Shown piece by piece: positions 25,862 to 38,363 of a DNA stretch of 38,363 bases. This DNA comes from Candidatus Goldiibacteriota bacterium (GTDB lineage: Bacteria > Oederibacteriota > PGYV01 > DSYL01). Position 1 is the stretch's first letter; every line of letters begins with the position of its first letter. The notes below the pieces were generated by a model that was given only the letters and a program-made list of their open reading frames with translations, searched no databases and had not been told where the DNA came from. The position numbers and the translations under genes were made by a program. The DNA lies in contig JAGNJD010000021.1 of NCBI GenBank assembly GCA_018000835.1, positions 1-38,363 on the forward strand, written 5' to 3'.

Positions 25862-26692
25862 TTAATAATATTTTTTTATCATGTCTTTTGCTTTTTTTAC
25901 TGCAATTCCAAAAAATTCAAATTCATTTTTTGATTTTTCTTCTTTTTCTGCCTGCAAAAATTCCTGGCCTTCATATTCTATCGTAATCCAGCCGCTATAT
26001 TTTGCATCGCTTAATATCCTGAAAATCCTGTCCATGTCAAAATCAGACGTCTGCCCGTCTTTACTTATCTTATGAACTTTTAAATGACAATACAAAGCAT
26101 ATTTCATTGAATCTGCTATTCCTTTATAAATATCTTCATCAAAGCCGAGATAATTGCCGGTATCTACGTTTAGTCTCACGTAAGGTGAGTTTACGTCTTC
26201 TATGAATTTAATGCTCGATTTAGAATCTGGCAGAAAGCCGCCATGGTTGTGCGGTTCAACAACTAAAGTTATACCCTTTTTCTCTGCATATTTTGCTGCT
26301 TCTTTCATGTATTTAACCGCATTGTTCCATAGTGCCTCACGTTTTCCCTGCGGAGGCCAGCCGGCAAAAACCCGGACAAAAGAAGCCCCGAGTATTTCTG
26401 CCGTGTCGACCGATTTTTTTACGTAATCCAGATTTGCCTTGTTGTCTTTTTCTTTTTCGTTTCCAAAATTATTTCCTGGCGATACTGCACATATTTCCAG
26501 TCCCGCATCATTTGCTTTTTTCCTTAACGCCCGCAGATGTTTTTCGTTATGGTCTTTTATGTGTTCCATTATAAATTCAATTCCGCCAAGCCCTTCTTTT
26601 GCATATAATTCTATCAGGCCGGAATCATCAAGTTTTCCTGTTTCAATGGAATGATGATGCGACCACGTCGTTGCAGATAATTTGTATGACAT
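25862..26692 (-). CDS. Sugar phosphate isomerase/epimerase (xylose-isomerase-like TIM barrel)
   Basis: 276 residues of the AP endonuclease 2/xylose isomerase-like TIM-barrel family. The metal-site residues typical of the family are visible: Glu146 in VVEPHNHG, Asp177 in RLNVDTGN, His203 in YCHLKVH and Glu239 in ITIEYEGQ. No signal peptide, so cytoplasmic. Members isomerise or epimerise sugars, keto-sugars or inositols; the substrate cannot be read from sequence. It follows the Gfo/Idh/MocA dehydrogenase gene by 38 bases, a very common pair in sugar and inositol catabolism. Together they probably handle a sugar derived from plant polymers. ATG 26692 follows GGAGGG. Confidence 0.9.
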   Translation of the reverse strand: MSYKLSATTWSHHHSIETGKLDDSGLIELYAKEGLGGIEFIMEHIKDHNEKHLRALRKKANDAGLEICAVSPGNNFGNEKEKDNKANLDYVKKSVDTAEILGASFVRVFAGWPPQGKREALWNNAVKYMKEAAKYAEKKGITLVVEPHNHGGFLPDSKSSIKFIEDVNSPYVRLNVDTGNYLGFDEDIYKGIADSMKYALYCHLKVHKISKDGQTSDFDMDRIFRILSDAKYSGWITIEYEGQEFLQAEKEEKSKNEFEFFGIAVKKAKDMIKKYY

Positions 26693-26730: not shown

Positions 26731-27765
26731 CTAAACGTTTACTTTTTCAAATTTTCCGGTTTTTGCGGATTTTAATGCGGCTAATATCACCGCCATTGAT
26801 TTCATTCCTTCCACTCCGTCAACAATCGGCTTTTGTTTTTTTATTATGCAATCAACAAAATGTGCACATGGACTTATATATTTTGATTTTTCAGGAACTT
26901 TATAAGTATGCTCCTTTATTGTGTTATACGGATCTTCCGGCTTTATCGTCCATACGCGTATTCTTTGCGGGTCAATGTTTGACTGCTGAACAATTGCCTT
27001 TCCATGCGAGCCGCAAACTTCCACGCGGACTTCGTAAGGAGACGTAGACCATGATGCTTCAAACGAACCTAAAATTCCGTCTTTAAATTTTATGACGGCA
27101 TTAATGTTATCTTCCAATTTTATTTTTTTCTTTATCAAATTTGCGGTCTCTGCTGAAACGCTTACAATGTCTCTGTTATTTAAAACATATCTTATTAAAT
27201 CAAGTATGTGAATGCCTACATCCACACTTACGCCGCCGCCTGATTTTTTCTTGTCAAAAAACCAGGGGGAATTATCCGACCAGAACTCAGGTCCGGAATG
27301 CCCGAGTTTTCCTCTAACCGTTGCAATTTTACCAAGGATGCCGCTATCCACCACTTCTTTTAATATCTCATGAGCAGGGTCAAACCTGTGCGTCTGTTCA
27401 ACCATTAACACGACCCCGTTTTTCCTGCAGGCCTGAACCATGTTTTTCATGTCCTTAACAGACAAAGCCATTGGTTTTTCAACGAGAACGTGTTTTTTAT
27501 TTTTTGCGGCAAATATCGTCATGGATGCGTGCAGATAGTTTGGAACGCATACAGATACAGCATCAATATCAGATTCCATTATCATTTTTTTATAATCAAC
27601 ATAAACGTTTTTGATTTTATACTGCTCTGCTAATCTTACTGCTTTTTTCTTTATAATATCACATATTGCTACGATTTCCACGTCCGGGCATTCAGAATAC
27701 TGCGGTAAATGAAGCCGTTCTGCAATCTTTCCGGCACCAATAACTCCTACTTTTATTTTTTTCAT
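26731..27765 (-). CDS. Gfo/Idh/MocA-family NAD(P)-dependent oxidoreductase
   Basis: 344 residues. The Rossmann start has VGVIGAGKIA (6-15), the family EKP motif is at 96-98 (LVEKPMAL), and the catalytic-region VDVGIH is at 181-186 with Asp182 and His186. Family members oxidise or reduce sugars, sugar acids and inositols with bound NAD(P). It heads a two-gene operon with the sugar isomerase. The start ATG 27765 has a weak AAGGTGA site. The first 35 bases of this gene, plus the whole upstream region, are repeated exactly at 31470-31992 in front of the GH5 gene. Confidence 0.93.
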   Translation of the reverse strand: MKKIKVGVIGAGKIAERLHLPQYSECPDVEIVAICDIIKKKAVRLAEQYKIKNVYVDYKKMIMESDIDAVSVCVPNYLHASMTIFAAKNKKHVLVEKPMALSVKDMKNMVQACRKNGVVLMVEQTHRFDPAHEILKEVVDSGILGKIATVRGKLGHSGPEFWSDNSPWFFDKKKSGGGVSVDVGIHILDLIRYVLNNRDIVSVSAETANLIKKKIKLEDNINAVIKFKDGILGSFEASWSTSPYEVRVEVCGSHGKAIVQQSNIDPQRIRVWTIKPEDPYNTIKEHTYKVPEKSKYISPCAHFVDCIIKKQKPIVDGVEGMKSMAVILAALKSAKTGKFEKVNV

Positions 27766-28184
27766 ATTTCACCTTAATTATTTAATAGTTTTCATATAAA
27801 ATAACATACGAAAACGTTTTTGTCAATATGATTTAAAATAAAACGTAATAGTTTTATTTATAAGTAAACGCTCGTTTTATTCGAAAGGACGTAAATATTG
27901 ATGCACAGCAGGCTTAAATCAATACGTCTCGTTATTTTGTCTGGCGATTAAATTACGTCCTGTGGTGCGTGTTTTACGGTTTGTTATAGGTGATATATGT
28001 GATAGCAATGATAACGTATACTACTAATACGCAGCCGGCAATTTTATTTTACTATCTGCCTGCTGTATTTGTTTAATACCACGTAATAATATATATCTGC
28101 CGATACTTCTTTTTCAACCCTGTTTTTGCAATCCCATACTACCCTTATCTTATAAAATCGCTTATTACCTGTAGTTTTGTATTT
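27766..28184. other. Intergenic region upstream of the dehydrogenase gene
   Basis: 419 bases between the GH5 stop and the dehydrogenase start. Only the promoter near the right-hand gene is recognisable. I see no strong terminator after GH5 and no small gene. The whole region is duplicated at 31505-31923. Confidence 0.6.
27798..27826 (-). promoter_or_regulatory. Promoter of the dehydrogenase-isomerase operon with an operator-like palindrome
   Basis: Minus strand: perfect -35 TTGACA (27821-27826), 17-base spacer, weak -10 TATTTT (27798-27803). The spacer holds the perfect palindrome AAAACGTTTT (27811-27820), with a central CpG as in LacI-family operators. A repressor bound there would block polymerase directly. 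Confidence 0.55.
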
Positions 28185-31100
28185 TTACTTCAGTATTACC
28201 AATACTTCCGGTTTGCTCTGCGTTTTTCCCCCTTTTGTATTCATAACTTCTATTAAAATATAATATACCCCGTTTGCAATATCTTTCAGATATCTTTCCT
28301 GTATTTCTACGTCGTTTGTTCCAACGCCGTAATTTTCCGTCTGTGTTATCTGCTTTATTAATCTGAAACTGGTTGTATAAATCCTTACTTTTATTATTTT
28401 ACATTTCTGCGTTATTTCAAATTTGATTTTTAAATTTCCTTCGTCCGGATTGTCCGGATTATATGGGTTGGGATAAATTATTACGTTGCTTATCGTAAGT
28501 TGCTGATTTTCTGGCTGTGTTATTGTAGGCGTTGCCGTAAAAGACGTTGTCGGCTGCTGACTGTTGGTTGGCGTTCCGGTCAAACTTGGCGTTGCCGTCT
28601 GCGTGTTTGTTATTATCTGCGTATTTGTCTGCGTCCACGTCCATGTTGCTGTCCTGCTGAAACTCGGCGTCACTGTCCATGTATTTGTTATTACCATCGT
28701 ATTTGTTCTTGTCCATGTCGGCGTTCTTGTCCATGTTGCCGTATTAGTTGGTGTGAACGTTGAACTTTGAACATTGAGCGTTGAACTTGTAGTTGGCGTT
28801 CCTGTTGGCGTCCTTGTTCCCGTATTTGTATAAGTAGACGTTGGTAACGTTGTCCATGATTGCGTTATCGTTGGCGTATTCGTAGGCGAAGGTGGCGTCC
28901 CGGTCCATGTCTGCGTTATTGTTGGTGAAATAGAATGCGTCGTCGATATTGTCCGCGTTGCAGTCCCGGTGGGTGTCCTTGTCCATGTCCCTGTTGGCAA
29001 TGCTGTCCACGTATTGGTCATCTGCATCGTGTTTGTCCGCGTCGCAGTTCTGGTTGGCGTTCTTGTCCACGTGCTTGTCGGCGATGCTGTCAATGTTGCC
29101 GTTCCTGTCAACGTATTCGTTATTATCATTGTATTCGTCCGGGTAAACGTTCCCGTTGCGTTCTCTGTCCCTGTTGGCGTCCTCGTCCACGTATTTGTAT
29201 AAGTAGACGTTGGTAACGTTGTCCATGATTGCGTTATCGTTGGCGTATTTGTAGGCGAAGGTGGCGTTCCTGTCCATGTCTGCGTTATTGTTGGTGATAT
29301 TGAATGCGTTGGTGATATTGTTAGTGTTGGTGTCCCTGTCCGTGTTAAGGTTTGCGTTATACTTGGCGTGTTTGTCGGTGTTGATGTTCTCGTCCATGTC
29401 CCTGTTACTGTTCCTGTATAGGTAGGTGTATTTGTTCGCGTCCATGTCCATGTATTTGTCGCAACTGATGTGTTTGTCTGCGTCACTGTGGCTGTATGTG
29501 TCCATGTCCATGTTCGTGTAGATGTTCCTGTGTATGTGCTTGTTGAAACCTGCGTATTTGTCCGCGTTGCGGTCCCGGTTGGTGTCCTTGTCCATGTCGG
29601 CGTTGCTGTCCGCGTATTTGTTATTATCACCGTGTTTGTCCGCGTCGCGGTCCCTGTCCACGTTCTTGTTCTTGTGAAAGTATTCGTTATCGCCTGCGTA
29701 ACTGTTGGAGTTCTTGTCCGGGTATAAGTGGAAGTTGGTGGTTGTGCACATGCATTGCCTGATGAGCATGCTTCTATTCCTGAATTAGCGTCCTGCACTG
29801 ATGCACTGGTCCATTCGCACACAAGCACTCCATTTTCATATAATGCTGCATATTGCAGATTTGTCCAGTTACTGTTTGCAGGTAATCGCGAATAATCATT
29901 GCATCCATCATCTACAGGACTTGCCCAGCTACCGCGGTATAAATCCACCACCTTACCGGTTGTTAATTGTCCCCCATTTGCTGCAATTGTGCCTGCACTA
30001 AAACTAAATGTAACATATTGATTTGCCATTCTATTACCGCTTCCACAACTCGTCCCCATTGCTGTTCTCACTGCACTGCTTACTGCATCCCACGGACCAT
30101 TCACACCTATTGTATTAGTGGAATAAAACCACATTCTGACTGTCAGTGTAGTCCTGTCTATTGCAACTGTATCATAATTTGTTATCCTGAAGGCAATATT
30201 ATACACGTTTGCATTGCAAACATCATTTCCCGAAGTATTCTGCACCTCAAGATTCAATTTATGCGTCGGCGGTATCGTCGGTGATATAGTAGGCGTTCTC
30301 GTTATTGTCCGCGTAAAAGTTCTTGTTGCCGATAAATTAACGGTAGGCGTTCTCGTAGCCGTGCCGCACGTTGGTAAAACAAGAGCAGAATGATTATTTT
30401 TAAACGAATTGGAAGCAGGCGATACCTGCGTCCATCCGCCGTATGAGTCAACTCCATTTGACGTCCATGGCATCATTCCCTGCCATCCGTTGCTATATGC
30501 AGATTCATAATCCTGCGTAAGAGTATGACCCGTTGTCCCCATTGCAGAACATTCTCCTACGACGCAGGGTTTATCACTAATTCCAAAACTTGCAGGCGTT
30601 CCATACATTAACATTGTCCAGTATGGATCCATCCATGAATACCAGTGTGGTGAATAAAAATCCAGTTTTGCCCTGGTGTCTGAAACCCTTGCCTGTAATG
30701 CTGCATCGCTTACCTTGTTTCCCATTGAACCGCTTACAGTATCCGAATTGTATTTTATCACTCCCATGCCAACTGTTACCAGCACCTGACTGTTTGCATG
30801 TATGGCAACCGCTGCTTTTGCCCAAAAGGTCTGAAATCTTGTCCACGAAATTACTCCGCCTTCGTCAGTCGTAGCCCATTCAGGCTCGTTTGTCATATCA
30901 ATACACCATAAGGCAGAATTACCGCCATAGCGGGTTAAAAACGGAATCAGATAATTATTAATGTATGAATCAATGTTTGTGTCGGAATTTATCCAGTTTC
31001 TCCATCGCTGATAAGTCGTGTATGAATCCTTAAAATGGTCAAAAGAAATAAGGGTTGCTTTTATGTATACGCCGCGGTTGTTTGCTATGTTAAAAAAATC

Positions 31101-31457
31101 ATCCAGGTTGGACCAATGTGCCGCAGTTGCACCTGAAACGTAACCGGTTGAATCAATGTTGATGCCGACTTCTCCTGAGCAGGTAATCCATACTCTGGAA
31201 GAATTCAGTCCATAAGAATTAAACTGGGAATAATGACTATCCCACCAGGCAGAATCATAAGAACCACCAAAATCATTCCAGTTATCCCATGGCGTATTTG
31301 CCCCGCACATCCAGATACGATTTCCACATACCTGAAACTGTGAACCATTGACTGATATTCTTCCGGGGACTGCTGAAAATAATAAAGGTATTATGGTAAA
31401 AAAGGTTAGAATGATGATTAGATTTATTTTAGTAAAATTATTCAACTTAATTTTCAA
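28185..31457 (-). CDS. Secreted GH5-type endoglucanase/mannanase with CBM3, Thr-rich linker and sorting-type C-terminus
   Basis: 1090 residues. Signal peptide about 1-29. A GH5-like TIM barrel (about 32-365) has the acid/base Glu191 in DMTNEPEW, His271 in YSPHWYSW and probable nucleophile Glu302 in VVGECSAMG. After a short Thr-rich linker comes a CBM3-like cellulose-binding module (about 400-565) with RITNYDTVAIDRTTLTVRMW in two parts: RITNYDT and LTVRMWFYS. A long Thr-x-Thr linker (about 574-982) leads to a C-terminal domain of 108 residues with YPNPYNPD and ending PEVLVILK. It should hydrolyse beta-glucan or mannan outside the cell; GH5 substrate choice cannot be read safely. The start is TTG 31457, overlapping the TGA of a 16-codon upstream frame. 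The last 69 bases lie in the 523-bp repeat. Confidence 0.9.
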   Translation of the reverse strand: MKIKLNNFTKINLIIILTFFTIIPLLFSAVPGRISVNGSQFQVCGNRIWMCGANTPWDNWNDFGGSYDSAWWDSHYSQFNSYGLNSSRVWITCSGEVGINIDSTGYVSGATAAHWSNLDDFFNIANNRGVYIKATLISFDHFKDSYTTYQRWRNWINSDTNIDSYINNYLIPFLTRYGGNSALWCIDMTNEPEWATTDEGGVISWTRFQTFWAKAAVAIHANSQVLVTVGMGVIKYNSDTVSGSMGNKVSDAALQARVSDTRAKLDFYSPHWYSWMDPYWTMLMYGTPASFGISDKPCVVGECSAMGTTGHTLTQDYESAYSNGWQGMMPWTSNGVDSYGGWTQVSPASNSFKNNHSALVLPTCGTATRTPTVNLSATRTFTRTITRTPTISPTIPPTHKLNLEVQNTSGNDVCNANVYNIAFRITNYDTVAIDRTTLTVRMWFYSTNTIGVNGPWDAVSSAVRTAMGTSCGSGNRMANQYVTFSFSAGTIAANGGQLTTGKVVDLYRGSWASPVDDGCNDYSRLPANSNWTNLQYAALYENGVLVCEWTSASVQDANSGIEACSSGNACAQPPTSTYTRTRTPTVTQAITNTFTRTRTWTGTATRTNTVIITNTRTATPTWTRTPTGTATRTNTQVSTSTYTGTSTRTWTWTHTATVTQTNTSVATNTWTWTRTNTPTYTGTVTGTWTRTSTPTNTPSITQTLTRTGTPTLTISPTHSISPTITQTWTGTPPSPTNTPTITQSWTTLPTSTYTNTWTRTPTGTENATGTFTRTNTMIITNTLTGTATLTASPTSTWTRTPTRTATRTNTMQMTNTWTALPTGTWTRTPTGTATRTISTTHSISPTITQTWTGTPPSPTNTPTITQSWTTLPTSTYTNTGTRTPTGTPTTSSTLNVQSSTFTPTNTATWTRTPTWTRTNTMVITNTWTVTPSFSRTATWTWTQTNTQIITNTQTATPSLTGTPTNSQQPTTSFTATPTITQPENQQLTISNVIIYPNPYNPDNPDEGNLKIKFEITQKCKIIKVRIYTTSFRLIKQITQTENYGVGTNDVEIQERYLKDIANGVYYILIEVMNTKGGKTQSKPEVLVILK
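28512..29738. repeat. Degenerate Thr-x-Thr linker repeat of the GH5 gene
   Basis: About 1.2 kb of short degenerate repeats encode TWTRTPTGTATRTNT-like sequence on the minus strand. Two copies of a roughly 45-residue cassette beginning SISPTITQTWTGTPPSPTNT lie near 28800-28940 and 29165-29310. All linker frames, including the antisense, stay open over long stretches. Confidence 0.85.
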
Positions 31458-31504
31458 TTAAAAATTCCCCCGGCACCAATAACTCCTACTTTTATTTTTT
31501 TCAT
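31454..31504 (-). pseudogene. Vestigial 5' end of the dehydrogenase gene, now a 16-codon upstream frame coupled to GH5
   Basis: The right-hand repeat copy keeps the dehydrogenase ribosome-binding site, its ATG (31504) and 11 codons, giving MKKIKVGVIGAG. It then crosses the repeat junction and ends after GIFN at TGA (31454-31456). That TGA overlaps the TTG start of the GH5 gene (31455-31457) as TTGA, a classical layout for translational coupling. GH5 has no ribosome-binding site of its own just upstream (GGGGAATTTTTAA only), so it may rely on ribosomes finishing this frame. Confidence 0.75.
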
Positions 31505-31923
31505 ATTTCACCTTAATTATTTAATAGTTTTCATATAAAATAACATACGAAAACGTTTTTGTCAATATGATTTAAAATAAAACGTAATAGTTTTATTTAT
31601 AAGTAAACGCTCGTTTTATTCGAAAGGACGTAAATATTGATGCACAGCAGGCTTAAATCAATACGTCTCGTTATTTTGTCTGGCGATTAAATTACGTCCT
31701 GTGGTGCGTGTTTTACGGTTTGTTATAGGTGATATATGTGATAGCAATGATAACGTATACTACTAATACGCAGCCGGCAATTTTATTTTACTATCTGCCT
31801 GCTGTATTTGTTTAATACCACGTAATAATATATATCTGCCGATACTTCTTTTTCAACCCTGTTTTTGCAATCCCATACTACCCTTATCTTATAAAATCGC
31901 TTATTACCTGTAGTTTTGTATTT
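31505..31923. other. Intergenic region between GH9 and GH5 (duplicate of 27766-28184)
   Basis: An exact copy of the DNA upstream of the dehydrogenase gene. It contains the copied promoter and nothing else recognisable. Confidence 0.7.
31537..31565 (-). promoter_or_regulatory. Captured promoter in front of GH5
   Basis: Copy of the dehydrogenase promoter: -35 TTGACA (31560-31565), spacer with palindrome AAAACGTTTT (31550-31559), -10 TATTTT (31537-31542). It is about 80 bases upstream of the GH5 start and would place GH5 under the same control as the sugar catabolic operon. Confidence 0.55.
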
Positions 31924-34900
31924 TTACTTCAGTATTACCAATACTTCCGGTTTGCTCTGCGTTTTTCCCCCTTTTGTATTCATAACTTCTATCAAAATAT
32001 AATATACCCCGTTTGCAAGATCTTTCAGGTATCGGTTCTCTATTTTTACGTCATTTGTTCCAACGCCGTAATTTTCCGTCTGTGTTATCTGCTTTATTAA
32101 TCTGAAACCGGTTGTATAAATCCTTACTTTTATTATTTTACATTTCTGCGTTATCTCAAATCTGATTTTTAAATTTCCTTCGTCCGGATTATATGGGTTG
32201 GGATAAATTATTACGTTGCTTATCGTAAGTTGCTGATTTTCTGGCTGTGTCATTGTAGGTGTTATTGTATTTGTTAACGTCAAACTTGCCGTAAAAGACG
32301 TTGTCGGCTGCTGACTGTTGGTTGGCGTTCCGGTAAAACTTGGCGTTGCCGTCTGCGTGTTTGTTATTATCTGCGTATTTGTCCGCGTCCACGTCCATGT
32401 TGCTGTCCTGCTGAAACTCGGCGTCACTGTCCATGTATTTGTTATTACCATCGTATTTGTTCTTGTCCATGTCGGCGTTCCTGTCATTGTATTTGTTGGT
32501 TGCTGACTGCCGGTTGCTGTTTGTGTGAAACTTGGTGTTACTGTCCGTGTTGGTGTGAACGTTGAACTTTGAACATTGAGCGTTGAGCTCGCCGTAGGCG
32601 TTCCTGTTGGCGTCCTTGTTCCCGTATTTGTATAAGTTGACGTTGGCAGCGTTGTCCATGATTGCGTTATCGTTGGCGTATTCGTAGGCGAAGGTGGCGT
32701 CCCTGTCCATGTCTGCGTTATTGTTGGTGAAATAGAATGCGTTGATGTTGCCGTCCTCGTCCCTGTCTGCGTCCACGTCCACGTATTAGTCAGTTGTACT
32801 GTATTTGTCCGCGTTGCAGTCCCGGTTGGTGTCCTTGTCCATGTCCCTGTCGGCGATGCTGTCCGTGTCGACGTCCCTGTCCACGTATTGGTCATCTGCA
32901 CCGTGTTTGTCTGCGTCGCAGTTCTGGTTGGCGTTCTTGTCCACGTGCTTGTCGGCGATGCTGTCAATGTTGCCGTTCCTGTCAACGTATTCGTTATTAT
33001 CATTGTATTCGTCCGGGTAAACGTTCCCGTTGCGGTCTCTGTCCCTGTTGGCGTCCTTGTTCCTGTATTTGTATAAGTAGACGTTGGCAGCGCTGTCCAT
33101 GATCGCGTTATCGTTGGCGTATTTGTAGGCGAAGGTGGCGTCCCTGTCCATGTCTGCGTTATTGTTGGTGAAATAGAATGCGTCGGCGATATTGTCCGCG
33201 TTGCAGTCCCGGTTGGTGTCCTTGTCCATGTCCCTGTCGGCGATGCTGTCCGTGTCGACGTCCCTGTCCACGTATTGGTCATCTGCACCGTGTTTGTCTG
33301 CGTCGCAGTTCTGGTTAGAGTTCTTGTCCACGTGCTTGTTGGCGTTGTCGTCCGCGTCCCTGTCGGCGTCCATGTGAACGTGCCGGTTACCTGCGTGTTT
33401 GTTCTCGTTGCCGTTCTCGTCCATGTCGGCGTTGACGTCTGTGTCCATGTCCACGTCCATGTGAATGTGCCGGTTGCCTGCGTATTTGTTCTCGTTGCGG
33501 TTCTCGTCCATGTCGGCGTTATCGTCCACGTATTTGTTATTATCACCGTGTTTGTCCGCGTTGCAGTCCCGGTGGGTGTCCTTGTCCATGTCCATGTCGG
33601 CGATGCTGTCCGTGTTGATGTTCCTGTCGGCGTTCCTGTAAATGTGTTTGTTGCAACCTGCGTATCTGTTGGCGTTGCAGATGCTCCTTCTAACCTGATA
33701 TTGTCTATATCTACCGTCCAATCCACGTTCCAACTTGCTGCAAATCCTATAAAATCAATGACCGTCTGTCCTGCTTCAACCAGAACCGATAAAGGAACGC
33801 GAACAGTTTTCCAGGTCGTATCTATTGACCCACCTTCCACTATATATGTCGGATCAACCTGAACGATATTTGTCCAGTTTATCCTTACAAAAAGCTGGTT
33901 TACGGGATTTGGACTCGTTGATGCCTGTCTCACATTGAAAACAAGGTATGTGTTTGCCCCAATACTTACATTTGTCGTTTTATCCCACCAGTGCTCCTGC
34001 CACCACCCGGAAATGGAAGCATACGTAAGCCGCATTCCGTTTCCCGTCAAACCATAAACACCTTCTGTCATTGTGCCCGGAGAACCATTGTTAACCGTGC
34101 CGTCAGACAACCTGTATCCTGCCGTGTCACCGTCATAAATAAGGGTATATGGGGGGATTGGCGTTCCTGTTGGTGTGCTTGTAGGAGAATAATATGGTGT
34201 ATTTGTCGGCGTTCTTGTCCTTGTGGGCGTAAATGTCGGTGTACCTACATAAGGAGTGTTTGTTCTTGTCCTTGTCGGAGTTGCCGTAGGTCCTGTCTGC
34301 CCTGCGAACGCGGCGTTTAACATAACAAACGCTGCCTGGTATCCTGTTGATGGCTCTGTTATTTCCCACGAACTATCAGGCCATACAGAATTCCAGTCCC
34401 TGTATGATTTCATTGGTGGTTGCCCATAAGGTGGAACAACTGAACTGACACCGTAGTATTGATTGGGACCACCTGAAAGATATCCTGGTGCAGGATTGGA
34501 ATCCCACACTGTCCCATCTGCAAACCATCCATGAAAAATCTGAGTTATTGATTTATCCGCACCAAATAATTGCGACTGTGTTAAATAACAATAAGCAGTT
34601 GCATTCCTGCCAAAATAATAATGTAAATATTCTTCTGCAGTTTCAAGATATGTTGCAATCATTGATGGATTTACATTAAGATTTGCACCCCACAAGCACA
34701 TGTCTGCCCATCCGGCTTTCATTGAATTTGATCCCCAGCAGTAATGTCCTGACCACATATGTGCTTTGTATGGACAATTATTGATATTAGGAGTAATATT
34801 CCACTCAATACCATTTCTTAAAGAAGTTTTTATTGCATTTACCACAGAAGTTGTAGCACCAGGTGCCATTGCATATGAAACAAGACCCTTTTGCATATCA

Positions 34901-36144
34901 CCTGATGCACCGGTTTCAAAATAATTACTAATAATTGGCTGATGAGAACCATCTGCTGTATTTGAGTTGTTATAATTTGCATCGCAATAATTTTTATATG
35001 TCGTATTCCCGGTTAACCTGAACAGCTCAGCTGCAGCTATAAAACGCAGCTGGTTATCACCTGCTGAATTACGATTTGCATTAGCATTATCAAAATTTGT
35101 ATGGTCATATTGTATATTAGAAGGATGTGAAGATAAAAAATTCCATGCATTTACTGCTGCTGTCTGAAGCTGGGTGGAGTATCCCGGGTATGCCCCGCTG
35201 TATGGTGCAAACAGGCGCGCACCAATTGCAAAAGCTGCAGCACCAGAAGCAGTCGCGGCAGTTGAATAATTAGCATAAAAATATGGTCGTAAATCATAGG
35301 ATGGATCGCCATCAGCGGCTGTTCCAGTAATACCTGTCACAACAAAACATCCCGAATACAATGCACCATCCGGTCTCTGCATTTTTAACATCCAGTCCAG
35401 TTCCCATTTTATCTCGTCAAGAATGTCGGGTACACCGTTTCCGGATTCGTTTATGGCTGTGTTGTCGCCAAATCTGTCAGGATACCATTCATATGCATAA
35501 GCAAGATTCCATATAACAGCAGCCATCCATGACGTATATTTCCTATAGTCACCTGCATCAAACCAACCCTTTGTTATATCTCTCTGTGTTCCAGATTGCA
35601 CTCCGCCAAGTGAATTATCATAAAGCAAAGCAGAACCCTGTTGTGCATGATCATAAACATGTGTCCATGTCCCCCCTGTAGCAGCAGTAATGGTTATATT
35701 GGAACGATTGTAAAAATACATTTTTACAGATGCCTGTAGTGCCCCATTATAAATATTATCTCCTATATCAAAGTTATATGACTGTCTGTCGTTTGTTGGA
35801 TCATATATGTGGTAAGTCCCGGGAGTAGTAAAGGAAGTAAATTGTCCCTGCCATACTTTATCTCCCGAAAAAGTCGTATCAGTTGCACCGCCGTTCCATG
35901 CGGTCAGCGTTATCGTCTGCATAACGGCGTTGTCTGACGACCTGCGTAACTGAACCGATGCACCAGGCACATACGTTATTGCAGAATCATAGCCGGTTTG
36001 CGGGTCTTTTATCATAAACCATTTTGCAGAATTTGGCCTGTAGCCGATCTGATCTACTATTATCTGTTCAGATATTGGTGCGGATAAAATAATCTGGAAG
36101 AAAAATAAACTAATAAATAAACACAAGAATAATCTTTTTTTCAT
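31924..36144 (-). CDS. Secreted GH9 endoglucanase with CBM, Thr-rich linker and sorting-type C-terminus
   Basis: 1406 residues. A signal peptide (about 1-22) is followed by a CelD-type N-terminal Ig domain (VDQIGYRPN at 30-38, to about 125) and the GH9 (alpha/alpha)6 barrel (about 130-615). WFDAGDY has the catalytic-base pair Asp196 and Asp199; WEITEPSTGYQAAFV has the likely acid Glu597. A first Thr/Pro linker (617-665) precedes a CBM-like jelly roll (about 668-822, ending DIDNIRLEG). A long Thr-x-Thr linker (about 823-1301) leads to a 105-residue C-terminal domain nearly identical to that of the GH5 enzyme. GH9 enzymes cut cellulose, often processively. No cohesin or dockerin is present, so this is not a cellulosome enzyme. 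It has its own promoter and operator-like site. Confidence 0.93.
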   Translation of the reverse strand: MKKRLFLCLFISLFFFQIILSAPISEQIIVDQIGYRPNSAKWFMIKDPQTGYDSAITYVPGASVQLRRSSDNAVMQTITLTAWNGGATDTTFSGDKVWQGQFTSFTTPGTYHIYDPTNDRQSYNFDIGDNIYNGALQASVKMYFYNRSNITITAATGGTWTHVYDHAQQGSALLYDNSLGGVQSGTQRDITKGWFDAGDYRKYTSWMAAVIWNLAYAYEWYPDRFGDNTAINESGNGVPDILDEIKWELDWMLKMQRPDGALYSGCFVVTGITGTAADGDPSYDLRPYFYANYSTAATASGAAAFAIGARLFAPYSGAYPGYSTQLQTAAVNAWNFLSSHPSNIQYDHTNFDNANANRNSAGDNQLRFIAAAELFRLTGNTTYKNYCDANYNNSNTADGSHQPIISNYFETGASGDMQKGLVSYAMAPGATTSVVNAIKTSLRNGIEWNITPNINNCPYKAHMWSGHYCWGSNSMKAGWADMCLWGANLNVNPSMIATYLETAEEYLHYYFGRNATAYCYLTQSQLFGADKSITQIFHGWFADGTVWDSNPAPGYLSGGPNQYYGVSSVVPPYGQPPMKSYRDWNSVWPDSSWEITEPSTGYQAAFVMLNAAFAGQTGPTATPTRTRTNTPYVGTPTFTPTRTRTPTNTPYYSPTSTPTGTPIPPYTLIYDGDTAGYRLSDGTVNNGSPGTMTEGVYGLTGNGMRLTYASISGWWQEHWWDKTTNVSIGANTYLVFNVRQASTSPNPVNQLFVRINWTNIVQVDPTYIVEGGSIDTTWKTVRVPLSVLVEAGQTVIDFIGFAASWNVDWTVDIDNIRLEGASATPTDTQVATNTFTGTPTGTSTRTASPTWTWTRTPTGTATRTNTVIITNTWTITPTWTRTATRTNTQATGTFTWTWTWTQTSTPTWTRTATRTNTQVTGTFTWTPTGTRTTTPTSTWTRTLTRTATQTNTVQMTNTWTGTSTRTASPTGTWTRTPTGTATRTISPTHSISPTITQTWTGTPPSPTNTPTITRSWTALPTSTYTNTGTRTPTGTETATGTFTRTNTMIITNTLTGTATLTASPTSTWTRTPTRTATQTNTVQMTNTWTGTSTRTASPTGTWTRTPTGTATRTNTVQLTNTWTWTQTGTRTATSTHSISPTITQTWTGTPPSPTNTPTITQSWTTLPTSTYTNTGTRTPTGTPTASSTLNVQSSTFTPTRTVTPSFTQTATGSQQPTNTMTGTPTWTRTNTMVITNTWTVTPSFSRTATWTWTRTNTQIITNTQTATPSFTGTPTNSQQPTTSFTASLTLTNTITPTMTQPENQQLTISNVIIYPNPYNPDEGNLKIRFEITQKCKIIKVRIYTTGFRLIKQITQTENYGVGTNDVKIENRYLKDLANGVYYILIEVMNTKGGKTQSKPEVLVILK
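32242..33678. repeat. Degenerate Thr-x-Thr linker repeat of the GH9 gene
   Basis: About 1.4 kb of the same repeat DNA as in GH5, including two copies of the SISPTITQTWTGTPPSPTNT cassette (near 32600-32745 and 33040-33185) and blocks shared almost word for word with GH5. It is probably homogenised by recombination. Confidence 0.85.
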
Positions 36145-36230: not shown

Positions 36231-38363
36231 TTATTTAATTATGATGAAATGCGTTATTTTGCTTTTTTGTTCGTTCCCTTTTTTGTCCTTAACTACGCAT
36301 ACGTAATAATAAATCCCGCATGCAAGTTTGTTTATTTTATCCCGAGGAATTTCAAGAGTTGTGAATAAATTCCCGCTAAATTTTACTTCTTCTATCTCCC
36401 TGAACCCCATCGTATAAATTTTCAGTTTTATGGAATCTATCTGCCCTGAAACGTCACAATACAAAAAAACCTTTTGCGTATTTTTTACGACAGGGTTTGG
36501 ATATATGAAAACGTCGTTGATTGTCGTCTGCTGATTACCGGTTTCCGTAAAAGACGTTGTCGGCTGCTGACTGCCTGTTGCAGTCCGGGTTACCGTTATT
36601 ATCCATGTTGCTGTCACTGTTCGCGTTTGTGTTGGCGTTCCTGCCGCTGTTCTTGTCCATGTTGCCGTATTTGTTGCTGTAAACGTTGAACTTGGGACAT
36701 TGAACGTTGAACTTGCAGTTAACGTCGGCGTCCTTGTTCCAGTATCTGTATAAGTGGACGTTTGTGATATCGTCCATGACTGCGTTATCGTTTGCGTAAT
36801 CGTTGGGGAAGGCGGCGTCCCGGTCCATGTCTGCGTTATCGTAGGTGATACAGAATACGTAGGTGATATTGTCCGCGTCCACGTCAACGTTATACCCGGC
36901 GTTAACGTTAAACTTGGCGTTATTGTCCTTGTTGCCGTGCGAGTCATTGTGTTGACAGGCGTCCTTGTCGGCGTTGCATTTGATTTTAAAACAAAATGCA
37001 AAACAAAATGAGCAGGAACTGAATATGAAAAAGTATTTCCGGTTAAAACCGGTGCAGCCCTTGACGTTATGTTATAATTTGCTCCGCCAAATCCCCAGCA
37101 TTCAACAGATGTATAAGTCATACCGCTCGTAATATTTACGTTTGCGGTCTGGTTTGTTCCTGCCTTGTTTATTACAATTATGTGGAGTTCTTTTTCGTCA
37201 GAACCGTTTATTGAAGCATAAGTCGTCATGTTCGGGATGTCGTTTGATTCACAATATACTTTTGTATCCCCGTATTTGCCGTTTGCACCGTTATAATTCC
37301 TGAAAATTTTATATGCAGCGGAATGATATGGTCCGTAAGCCGTCTTCCACATGGTTGCCGCATAAACGCCGTATTTGCCGAAAATGCCCAGGGTATCTGC
37401 CATTGAAATGCCGCCTGAATAATCATTCCCTCCGCCATGTGCAAACTCAGTAATCGTGATTTTTGTCCCGGGATAATACGTATTAATTGAATTCTGTAAT
37501 TTGGGAATTAAAGGAAGTGCCCATGGATACCACTGTGCAATAGGACTGTTTTCCACGTAAGTTGTATCCCATAACGTCCTTGGCGCCTGCATCCTTGCAA
37601 TCTGCGCAGCAGACGACGTACAGGAATCCTCGGTTATTCTGCAAACCCCCGGAGTATTATACGTAAACGGTGGTGCCGTTCCTTCCCTTGCTTCTGAATA
37701 CCAGTGAAAATCAATTGCATCAAGTAACCGTCTGCCGTCAGTATCCGATGCCTGTTTCATTTTTGCGAGATAATAATCTACGAACCACTGATAACTTCCC
37801 TTTTCAGTTGTCCAGTCAGGCGGATTCCCAAAATCATTCATTGCCCAGAACCCAAAAAATACCGGCGCTAATATTTCACAATAAGGGTCAACATCTTTTA
37901 TTGCCTTTGCCGTTGCAATAGAACGGGTTACAATTTCTGATGCCCCGCATGGCGTTGGATGAATTCTTGGATGCGTATCGTCCCAGAGTGCAGGTTCATT
38001 ATCAAGATCATAAAATTTTACGCCGGTTTCGGTTGATGCATTGCCAAAAACGGATACAAGATAATTCACCTCTTCGTCAACATACACGTAATTATCCGTT
38101 AAATCCGGTGGATAAACAAGAGAAGACGACTTTTTGGGGACAACCTGTTTCCATCTTGAAGACGGGGCCGTCTGCGCAAGAGTTACAGTGCCTGCCTGGT
38201 CAGCAGCAACATAGCCGGCCATAGGAACGGTTATTATTGATTGCATGCCTGCGTTTAAACTTTCCTGATGGAATCGTCTTATGAGTCCACCAGGCTGATT
38301 ACAATCAGTGCCATACCCGTAATTACTTGAGCAGAGCCACGTATCAGACGTATGATACCAGTC
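36231..38363 (-). CDS. GH44 endoglucanase with Thr-rich linker and sorting-type C-terminus (5' end off-window)
   Basis: 710 residues visible. The frame stays open to the window edge (38363), where it reads DWYHTSDTWLCSSNYGYGTD, so the ATG at 38246 is internal and the N-terminus with its signal peptide is missing. GH44 motifs: DLDNEPALWDD with acid Glu123 of the visible part, and ITITEFAHGGGND with likely nucleophile Glu306. A beta-sandwich follows to about residue 465, then a shorter Thr-rich linker and a 102-residue C-terminal domain (FIYPNPVV...NKLACGIYYYV, ending HFIIIK). GH44 enzymes are endoglucanases/xyloglucanases. The C-terminal domain is the same type as in GH5 and GH9 but clearly diverged. 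The GH9 start is 87 bases downstream. Confidence 0.92.
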   Translation of the reverse strand, partial: DWYHTSDTWLCSSNYGYGTDCNQPGGLIRRFHQESLNAGMQSIITVPMAGYVAADQAGTVTLAQTAPSSRWKQVVPKKSSSLVYPPDLTDNYVYVDEEVNYLVSVFGNASTETGVKFYDLDNEPALWDDTHPRIHPTPCGASEIVTRSIATAKAIKDVDPYCEILAPVFFGFWAMNDFGNPPDWTTEKGSYQWFVDYYLAKMKQASDTDGRRLLDAIDFHWYSEAREGTAPPFTYNTPGVCRITEDSCTSSAAQIARMQAPRTLWDTTYVENSPIAQWYPWALPLIPKLQNSINTYYPGTKITITEFAHGGGNDYSGGISMADTLGIFGKYGVYAATMWKTAYGPYHSAAYKIFRNYNGANGKYGDTKVYCESNDIPNMTTYASINGSDEKELHIIVINKAGTNQTANVNITSGMTYTSVECWGFGGANYNITSRAAPVLTGNTFSYSVPAHFVLHFVLKSNATPTRTPVNTMTRTATRTITPSLTLTPGITLTWTRTISPTYSVSPTITQTWTGTPPSPTITQTITQSWTISQTSTYTDTGTRTPTLTASSTFNVPSSTFTATNTATWTRTAAGTPTQTRTVTATWIITVTRTATGSQQPTTSFTETGNQQTTINDVFIYPNPVVKNTQKVFLYCDVSGQIDSIKLKIYTMGFREIEEVKFSGNLFTTLEIPRDKINKLACGIYYYVCVVKDKKGNEQKSKITHFIIIK
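36540..36980. repeat. Degenerate Thr-x-Thr linker repeat of the GH44 gene
   Basis: About 440 bases of linker repeat with one diverged copy of the SPTITQTWTGTPPSPT cassette (near 36730-36870). It is shorter and less similar to the GH5 and GH9 linkers than they are to each other. Confidence 0.8.

Follow-up and report, generated by a model that had tools for sequence, protein, structure and literature searches.

A recent segmental duplication appears to have placed a secreted GH5-type hydrolase gene behind the promoter of a neighbouring dehydrogenase operon

The gene encoding a secreted GH5-type hydrolase in a Candidatus Goldiibacteriota genome seems to have received the promoter of the adjacent Gfo/Idh/MocA dehydrogenase (DH) operon by a recent segmental duplication, in which its regulation was probably kept and the short coding leader that came with the promoter would be mainly a by-product. 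We give this reading a probability of about 0.75. The window, which is the whole stretch of DNA analysed (38,363 nt), corresponds to the entire contig C14 of a draft genome of 2.3 Mb in 74 contigs. Its minus strand shows, in this order, GH44 (cut at the contig end), GH9, GH5, DH and a xylose-isomerase-like TIM barrel protein. The GH44 gene is found at 36231-38246, at the contig end, and the N-terminal part of its GH44 domain is absent from the assembly. The features of the region are as follows:

25862-26692, minus strand: xylose-isomerase-like TIM barrel protein, encoded by the second gene of the DH operon, which also adjoins DH in relatives
26731-27765, minus strand: Gfo/Idh/MocA dehydrogenase (DH), native owner of the promoter
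27731-28253, minus strand: left repeat copy, continuous with the intact DH gene
28185-31457, minus strand: GH5-type secreted hydrolase, with a TTG start, signal peptide, catalytic domain, Thr-rich linker and C-terminal sorting-like domain
31454-31504, minus strand: truncated DH frame of 16 codons (MKKIKVGVIGAGGIFN), whose TGA overlaps the GH5 TTG
31466-31474, minus strand: Shine-Dalgarno (SD)-like site of GH5 (GCCGGGGGA), which spans the joint and pairs at -8.6 kcal/mol with the genome's own 16S tail
31469-31470, no strand assigned: novel joint, where DH codon 12 (GG) meets 12 nt of GH5-side upstream sequence (GGGAATTTTTAA)
31470-31992, minus strand: right repeat copy, with the end of the GH9 C-terminal domain, the intergenic region, the promoter and the DH 5' end to codon 12; no mismatches to the left copy
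31537-31565, minus strand: promoter TTGACA-17-TATTTT with embedded operator, whose layout matches the upstream regions of the DH operon in relatives
31547-31562, no strand assigned: LacI-type operator-like palindrome (ACAAAAACGTTTTCGT) right behind the -35, matrix score 22.3
31788-31883, minus strand: relic of a second C-terminal domain type between the GH9 stop codon and the promoter, with in-frame VVWDCKNRVEKEVSADIYYYVVLNKYSRQIVK
31924-36144, minus strand: GH9, whose 3' end lies in the repeat

Sequence comparison shows that 27731-28253 and 31470-31992 are a direct repeat of 523 nt with 0 mismatches, present in only two copies in the genome, and its identity is far above chance expectation. 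Within the repeat lie the 5' end of DH up to codon 12, the DH promoter, the full intergenic region and the last codons of the C-terminal domains of GH5 and GH9; between DH codon 12 and the GH5 and GH9 stop codons, the match is complete (454/454 bases). Past the exact repeat, a similarity of about 95% between GH5 and GH9 continues over the C-terminal domain and reaches the Thr-rich linkers, where indels occur, therefore the exact part should come from an event newer than the shared domains, or from recent conversion. The preliminary description had stated that the right copy supplies GH5 with a promoter, a ribosome-binding site and the first 11 codons of DH, and the exact repeat of 523 nt bears this out. 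On the other side of the joint, the GH5-side sequence starts with GGGAATTTTTAATTG. The relic of the second C-terminal domain type is 91-93% identical to the ends of intact C-terminal-domain genes in contigs C4, C55 and C73, and its in-frame sequence within an intergenic region suggests an earlier recombination at the same site. The same relic is also found at 28049-28144, directly past the GH5 stop codon. In addition, the Thr-rich linkers of GH5 (28500-29750) and GH9 (32250-33680) contain dozens of diverged short repeats, with in-frame indels between the two linkers.

The promoter in the right copy shows a -35 box TTGACA (31565-31560), a 17-nt spacer and a -10 box TATTTT ending at 31537; from its end to the leader ATG there are 32 nt, the same spacing as at DH, and to the GH5 TTG 79 nt. 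DH and its TIM-barrel neighbour are conserved in same-order relatives. Eight of the 13 relatives (G003, G004, G007, G009, G010, G011, G012 and G013, in families f2, f3 and f6) show TTGAC(A/T)-NAARCGYTTTCG(T/C)-N4-TAtnnT, with the -35, the operator-like palindrome and the -10 in fixed register, located before DH or before a lipoprotein gene preceding DH. In named genome records, two relatives of DH were found, one near (68% identity) and one distant. The GH5 ortholog of G003 (59%) is on contig C1 and DH on contig C15; the ortholog adjoins a GH8 gene and a LacI-type gene, and its promoter is otherwise different, yet it carries ACGAAAGTGTTTTCGT, which is the operator at one mismatch. Because the promoter is conserved at DH and absent at the GH5 ortholog of G003, it originally belonged to DH and was then copied, and the same evidence from the relatives indicates that the position and the promoter of GH5 in the window are derived; this comparison reads the ancestral GH5 promoter from one genome, as an intact close ortholog is present in one relative only. 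G012, which belongs to another genus of the order, holds just a broken GH5 remnant (locus L045, 5500-6123), which is interrupted by internal stops and has lost most of its catalytic domain; the 340 nt read upstream of this remnant show no operator-like site. The relatives examined include no case of a GH5 gene with such an upstream sequence together with a DH gene without it, the arrangement that had been named beforehand as contrary to promoter capture. The capture of the promoter of DH by GH5, as first proposed from the window, is well supported by the original that stays at the intact DH gene and by a layout found at DH in eight relatives and not at the GH5 of G003, and the copying is apparently recent.

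The operator is a CG-centred near-palindrome with a fixed place in the promoter that is conserved in relatives, and its exact copies in the genome are only those at 31547-31562 and 27808-27823. With up to one mismatch, it precedes a GH94 gene in G008, a GH74-like gene in G003 and G011 (the GH74 likeness was judged by eye, and Pfam gives only a weak Sortilin-Vps10 match), a gene encoding a mannanase domain in G013 plus its homolog in G007, a gene encoding a CE2-domain lipoprotein in G012, and genes for secreted proteins in G007, G009 and G013. It is also present in a TTGACA-17-TAAAAT promoter (TTGACACGAAAACGGTTTTGTTGTAAAAT) at site 4142 of contig C29 (locus L079), before the gene of a secreted DUF6055 protein. 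This DUF6055 gene stands downstream of a rhamnogalacturonan lyase gene. In G003 (2.9 Mb), three sites with up to one mismatch were found, before DH, GH5 and the GH74-like gene, vs none in the reversed control. With two mismatches allowed, the operator precedes a secreted protein on contig C9 of the genome under study, although in an AT-rich genome this search is noisy, with 35 matches vs 50 in the control. The genome contains nine LacI-type HTH matches, none of which could be assigned as the cognate repressor. DH and GH5 probably belong to one LacI-type regulon for plant polysaccharides, and the operator found before the GH5 ortholog of G003 and before other polysaccharide genes suggests that the capture kept GH5 in this regulon. 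DH had been described as unrelated to GH5; in function it probably is not, as the operator places both genes in one predicted regulon. Furthermore, the name cellulase initially given to GH5 is doubtful: the gene shows no Pfam match at 0.01, Cellulase (PF00150) included, and beta-mannanases are the nearest, and the sole, solved relatives found (best E 1.6e-26), so that its product appears closer to beta-mannanases than to cellulases as far as the nearest solved structures indicate.

The leader frame starts at the ATG 31504-31502, behind the ribosome site AAGGTGA, and encodes MKKIKVGVIGA (11 DH codons) followed by GGIFN and the TGA 31456-31454. This TGA overlaps the GH5 TTG (31457-31455) as TTGA, with both frames co-directed, as can be read directly in the sequence and as the preliminary description had reported. 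The latter also held that GH5 has no ribosome-binding site of its own; however, the site GCCGGGGGA, which ends 8 nt upstream of the GH5 TTG, contains GGGGGA, to which DH contributed two of the five G bases and the GH5 side the other three. Its pairing energy, computed against the 16S tail (anti-SD) of the same genome (GAUCACCUCCUUU), is as good as the -8.5 kcal/mol of the DH/leader site, which indicates that GH5 has a usable ribosome-binding site. The median for 110 sampled genes of the genome is -7.8 kcal/mol, and about 2% of random 20-mers of the window match the energy of the GH5 and DH sites.

All three frames of the GH5-side sequence show a stop just before, across, or about 10 nt past the start, all within about 12 nt, and 64 of the 110 starts sampled in the genome are NTGA; thus, the TTGA overlap is unremarkable, and chance alone would produce it about one time in five. 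In the GH5 frame, a TAA stands immediately 5' of the TTG, so that even before the event this frame could not extend upstream beyond TTG 31457. A fusion of DH and GH5 by frameshift is ruled out by this TAA, and an alternative GH5 start at TTG 31445 is less likely, with an SD energy of only -0.9. No known RNA element was found by Rfam in 27600-32100, and the predicted structure of the leader RNA is not more stable than those of shuffled sequences (z 0.54), which does not favour a reading of the attenuator type. With 0 changes between its copies, the repeat is too recent for selection on the 16-codon frame to show in the sequence. Leader-coupled translation of GH5 is possible, and the leader frame, which looks mainly like a by-product, may raise GH5 translation by coupling.

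According to the proposed mechanism, the duplicated stretch would have extended backwards from DH codon 12 across the DH promoter into a C-terminal-domain coding region, and its copy would have been joined to a GH5 gene, by then already a neighbour of the DH operon, at a point 12 nt before the TTG. Transcription of GH5 would now most likely proceed from the copy of the DH promoter, with a start near 31530, about 7 nt past the -10, giving an mRNA made of the DH 5' leader, the 16-codon frame and GH5. A LacI-family repressor probably blocks the promoter between the -35 and the -10 until a sugar derived from plant polysaccharides releases it, which would make GH5 and DH respond jointly. This repressor probably also controlled the ancestral promoter of GH5; with the same repressor before and after, the event would have swapped the promoter and kept the regulation. 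Ribosomes may start at the old DH ATG, read 16 codons, stop over the GH5 start and reinitiate, or may instead start directly at the GH5 TTG via the GGGGGA at the joint. We infer promoter activity, the existence and identity of the repressor, the inducer and the coupling from the DNA sequence. The present arrangement could have arisen by two routes. In route (a), the segment reaching from GH5 to DH codon 12 would first have been duplicated in tandem, after which the C-terminal domain of GH9 would have recombined with that of the first GH5 copy, so that one GH5 was lost. In route (b), GH5 would have entered between GH9 and DH, with a homologous exchange in the C-terminal domain and an illegitimate joint at DH codon 12; the location of GH5 away from DH in G003 slightly favours this route. 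The Thr-rich linkers of GH5 and GH9 are likely to be recombination-prone. No terminator was seen between the GH9 stop codon and the promoter, which makes read-through from GH9 an additional possible source of GH5 mRNA.

The 16-codon frame could have a larger part than that of a by-product, as a functional leader peptide that GH5 translation needs, or that was selected to promote it, through termination-reinitiation at the TTGA, which we consider possible but rather doubtful. TTG is usually a weak start codon, so arriving ribosomes could help GH5. The leader shows a good SD (-8.5) and an ATG, the TGA/TTG overlap and an SD within the upstream frame, features shared with the coupled pairs studied in E. 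coli and Haloferax (PMC6728339). However, GH5 itself has a comparable SD (-8.6), and the overlap needs no selection, given that each of the three frames meets a stop no further than about 12 nt from the start; in addition, the repeat is too young for conservation and its arrangement is found in no relative. The combined reading, in which a relocated hemicellulase gene regained its ancestral repressor via the promoter of a co-regulated operon and the coding stub is now also a working coupling leader, is unlikely.

At the other extreme, the duplication could be a passive by-product of recombination in the C-terminal domains and Thr-rich linkers, with GH5 expressed mainly by read-through from GH44 and GH9 and not from the copied promoter. 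The linker and C-terminal domain common to GH5 and GH9, the relic of another C-terminal domain between them and the lack of a visible terminator from the GH9 stop codon to the promoter are in line with this; nevertheless, the copied promoter is undamaged, matches exactly a promoter that different families conserve, keeps the DH spacing of 32 nt to the leader ATG and shows no sign of silence, which makes this explanation improbable. The draft genome could also contain an assembly artefact in which the two copies were misjoined, as it consists of 74 contigs, an exact repeat of 523 nt is long for a short-read assembly, and contigs C4 and C73 begin within C-terminal-domain genes. Nonetheless, the joint 31469/31470 lies at the repeat edge, between sequences without a shared stretch, and either resolution of the repeat needs a joint between the DH 5' end and GH5, the alternative being one that would place GH5 on a circle; the joint is thus independent of how the assembler resolved the repeat, and an artefact is very improbable.

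Promoter capture by duplication, the event preferred here, is best known from a laboratory evolution experiment. In the long-term evolution experiment with E. coli, citT captured a promoter by a rnk-citG tandem duplication (PMC5918244). In both cases a duplication sets a gene behind the copy of another gene's promoter with a truncated ORF in between, which in rnk-citT is a fusion ORF. The two cases differ in that the new promoter of citT gave new expression conditions (aerobic), whereas that of GH5 seems to carry the former type of operator, and in that the effect was measured for rnk-citT and is deduced for GH5. The GH5/DH pair would therefore represent a natural and apparently recent capture, caught with both copies still identical and with relatives that reveal the first owner of the promoter; its particular trait is that it seems to conserve the regulator, and it illustrates the replacement of a promoter sequence with regulation retained.

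Termination-reinitiation is a documented mode of coupling where stop and start codons overlap and an SD lies internally, and in E. coli overlapping pairs the removal of the SD strongly cut downstream translation in four of five pairs (PMC6728339), so that coupling and direct SD signals may act together at GH5. The 4-nt stop/start overlap and the SD in the upstream frame are shared with GH5; however, the documented pairs are ATGA or TGATG and that of GH5 is TTGA, and the upstream frame at GH5 is a fragment of 16 codons and not a gene.

The operator sites point to a LacI-type plant-polysaccharide regulon in an uncultured order, of which no description was found in the literature. In Clostridium thermocellum, GlyR3, of the LacI family, co-regulates the celC operon and manB (PMC5483248). 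The LacI-family control of several beta-glucan or mannan genes via CG-centred near-palindromes is similar, being a prediction in the present case, although the operator (TGAACGCGCGTACA at celC) and the organism are different. In G003, a cluster on contig C1 (locus L044, 26-10857) contains genes for GH8, GH5, a LacI-type regulator and another hydrolase-like protein, and a separate AGGTAAACGTTTACCT palindrome precedes the regulator gene.
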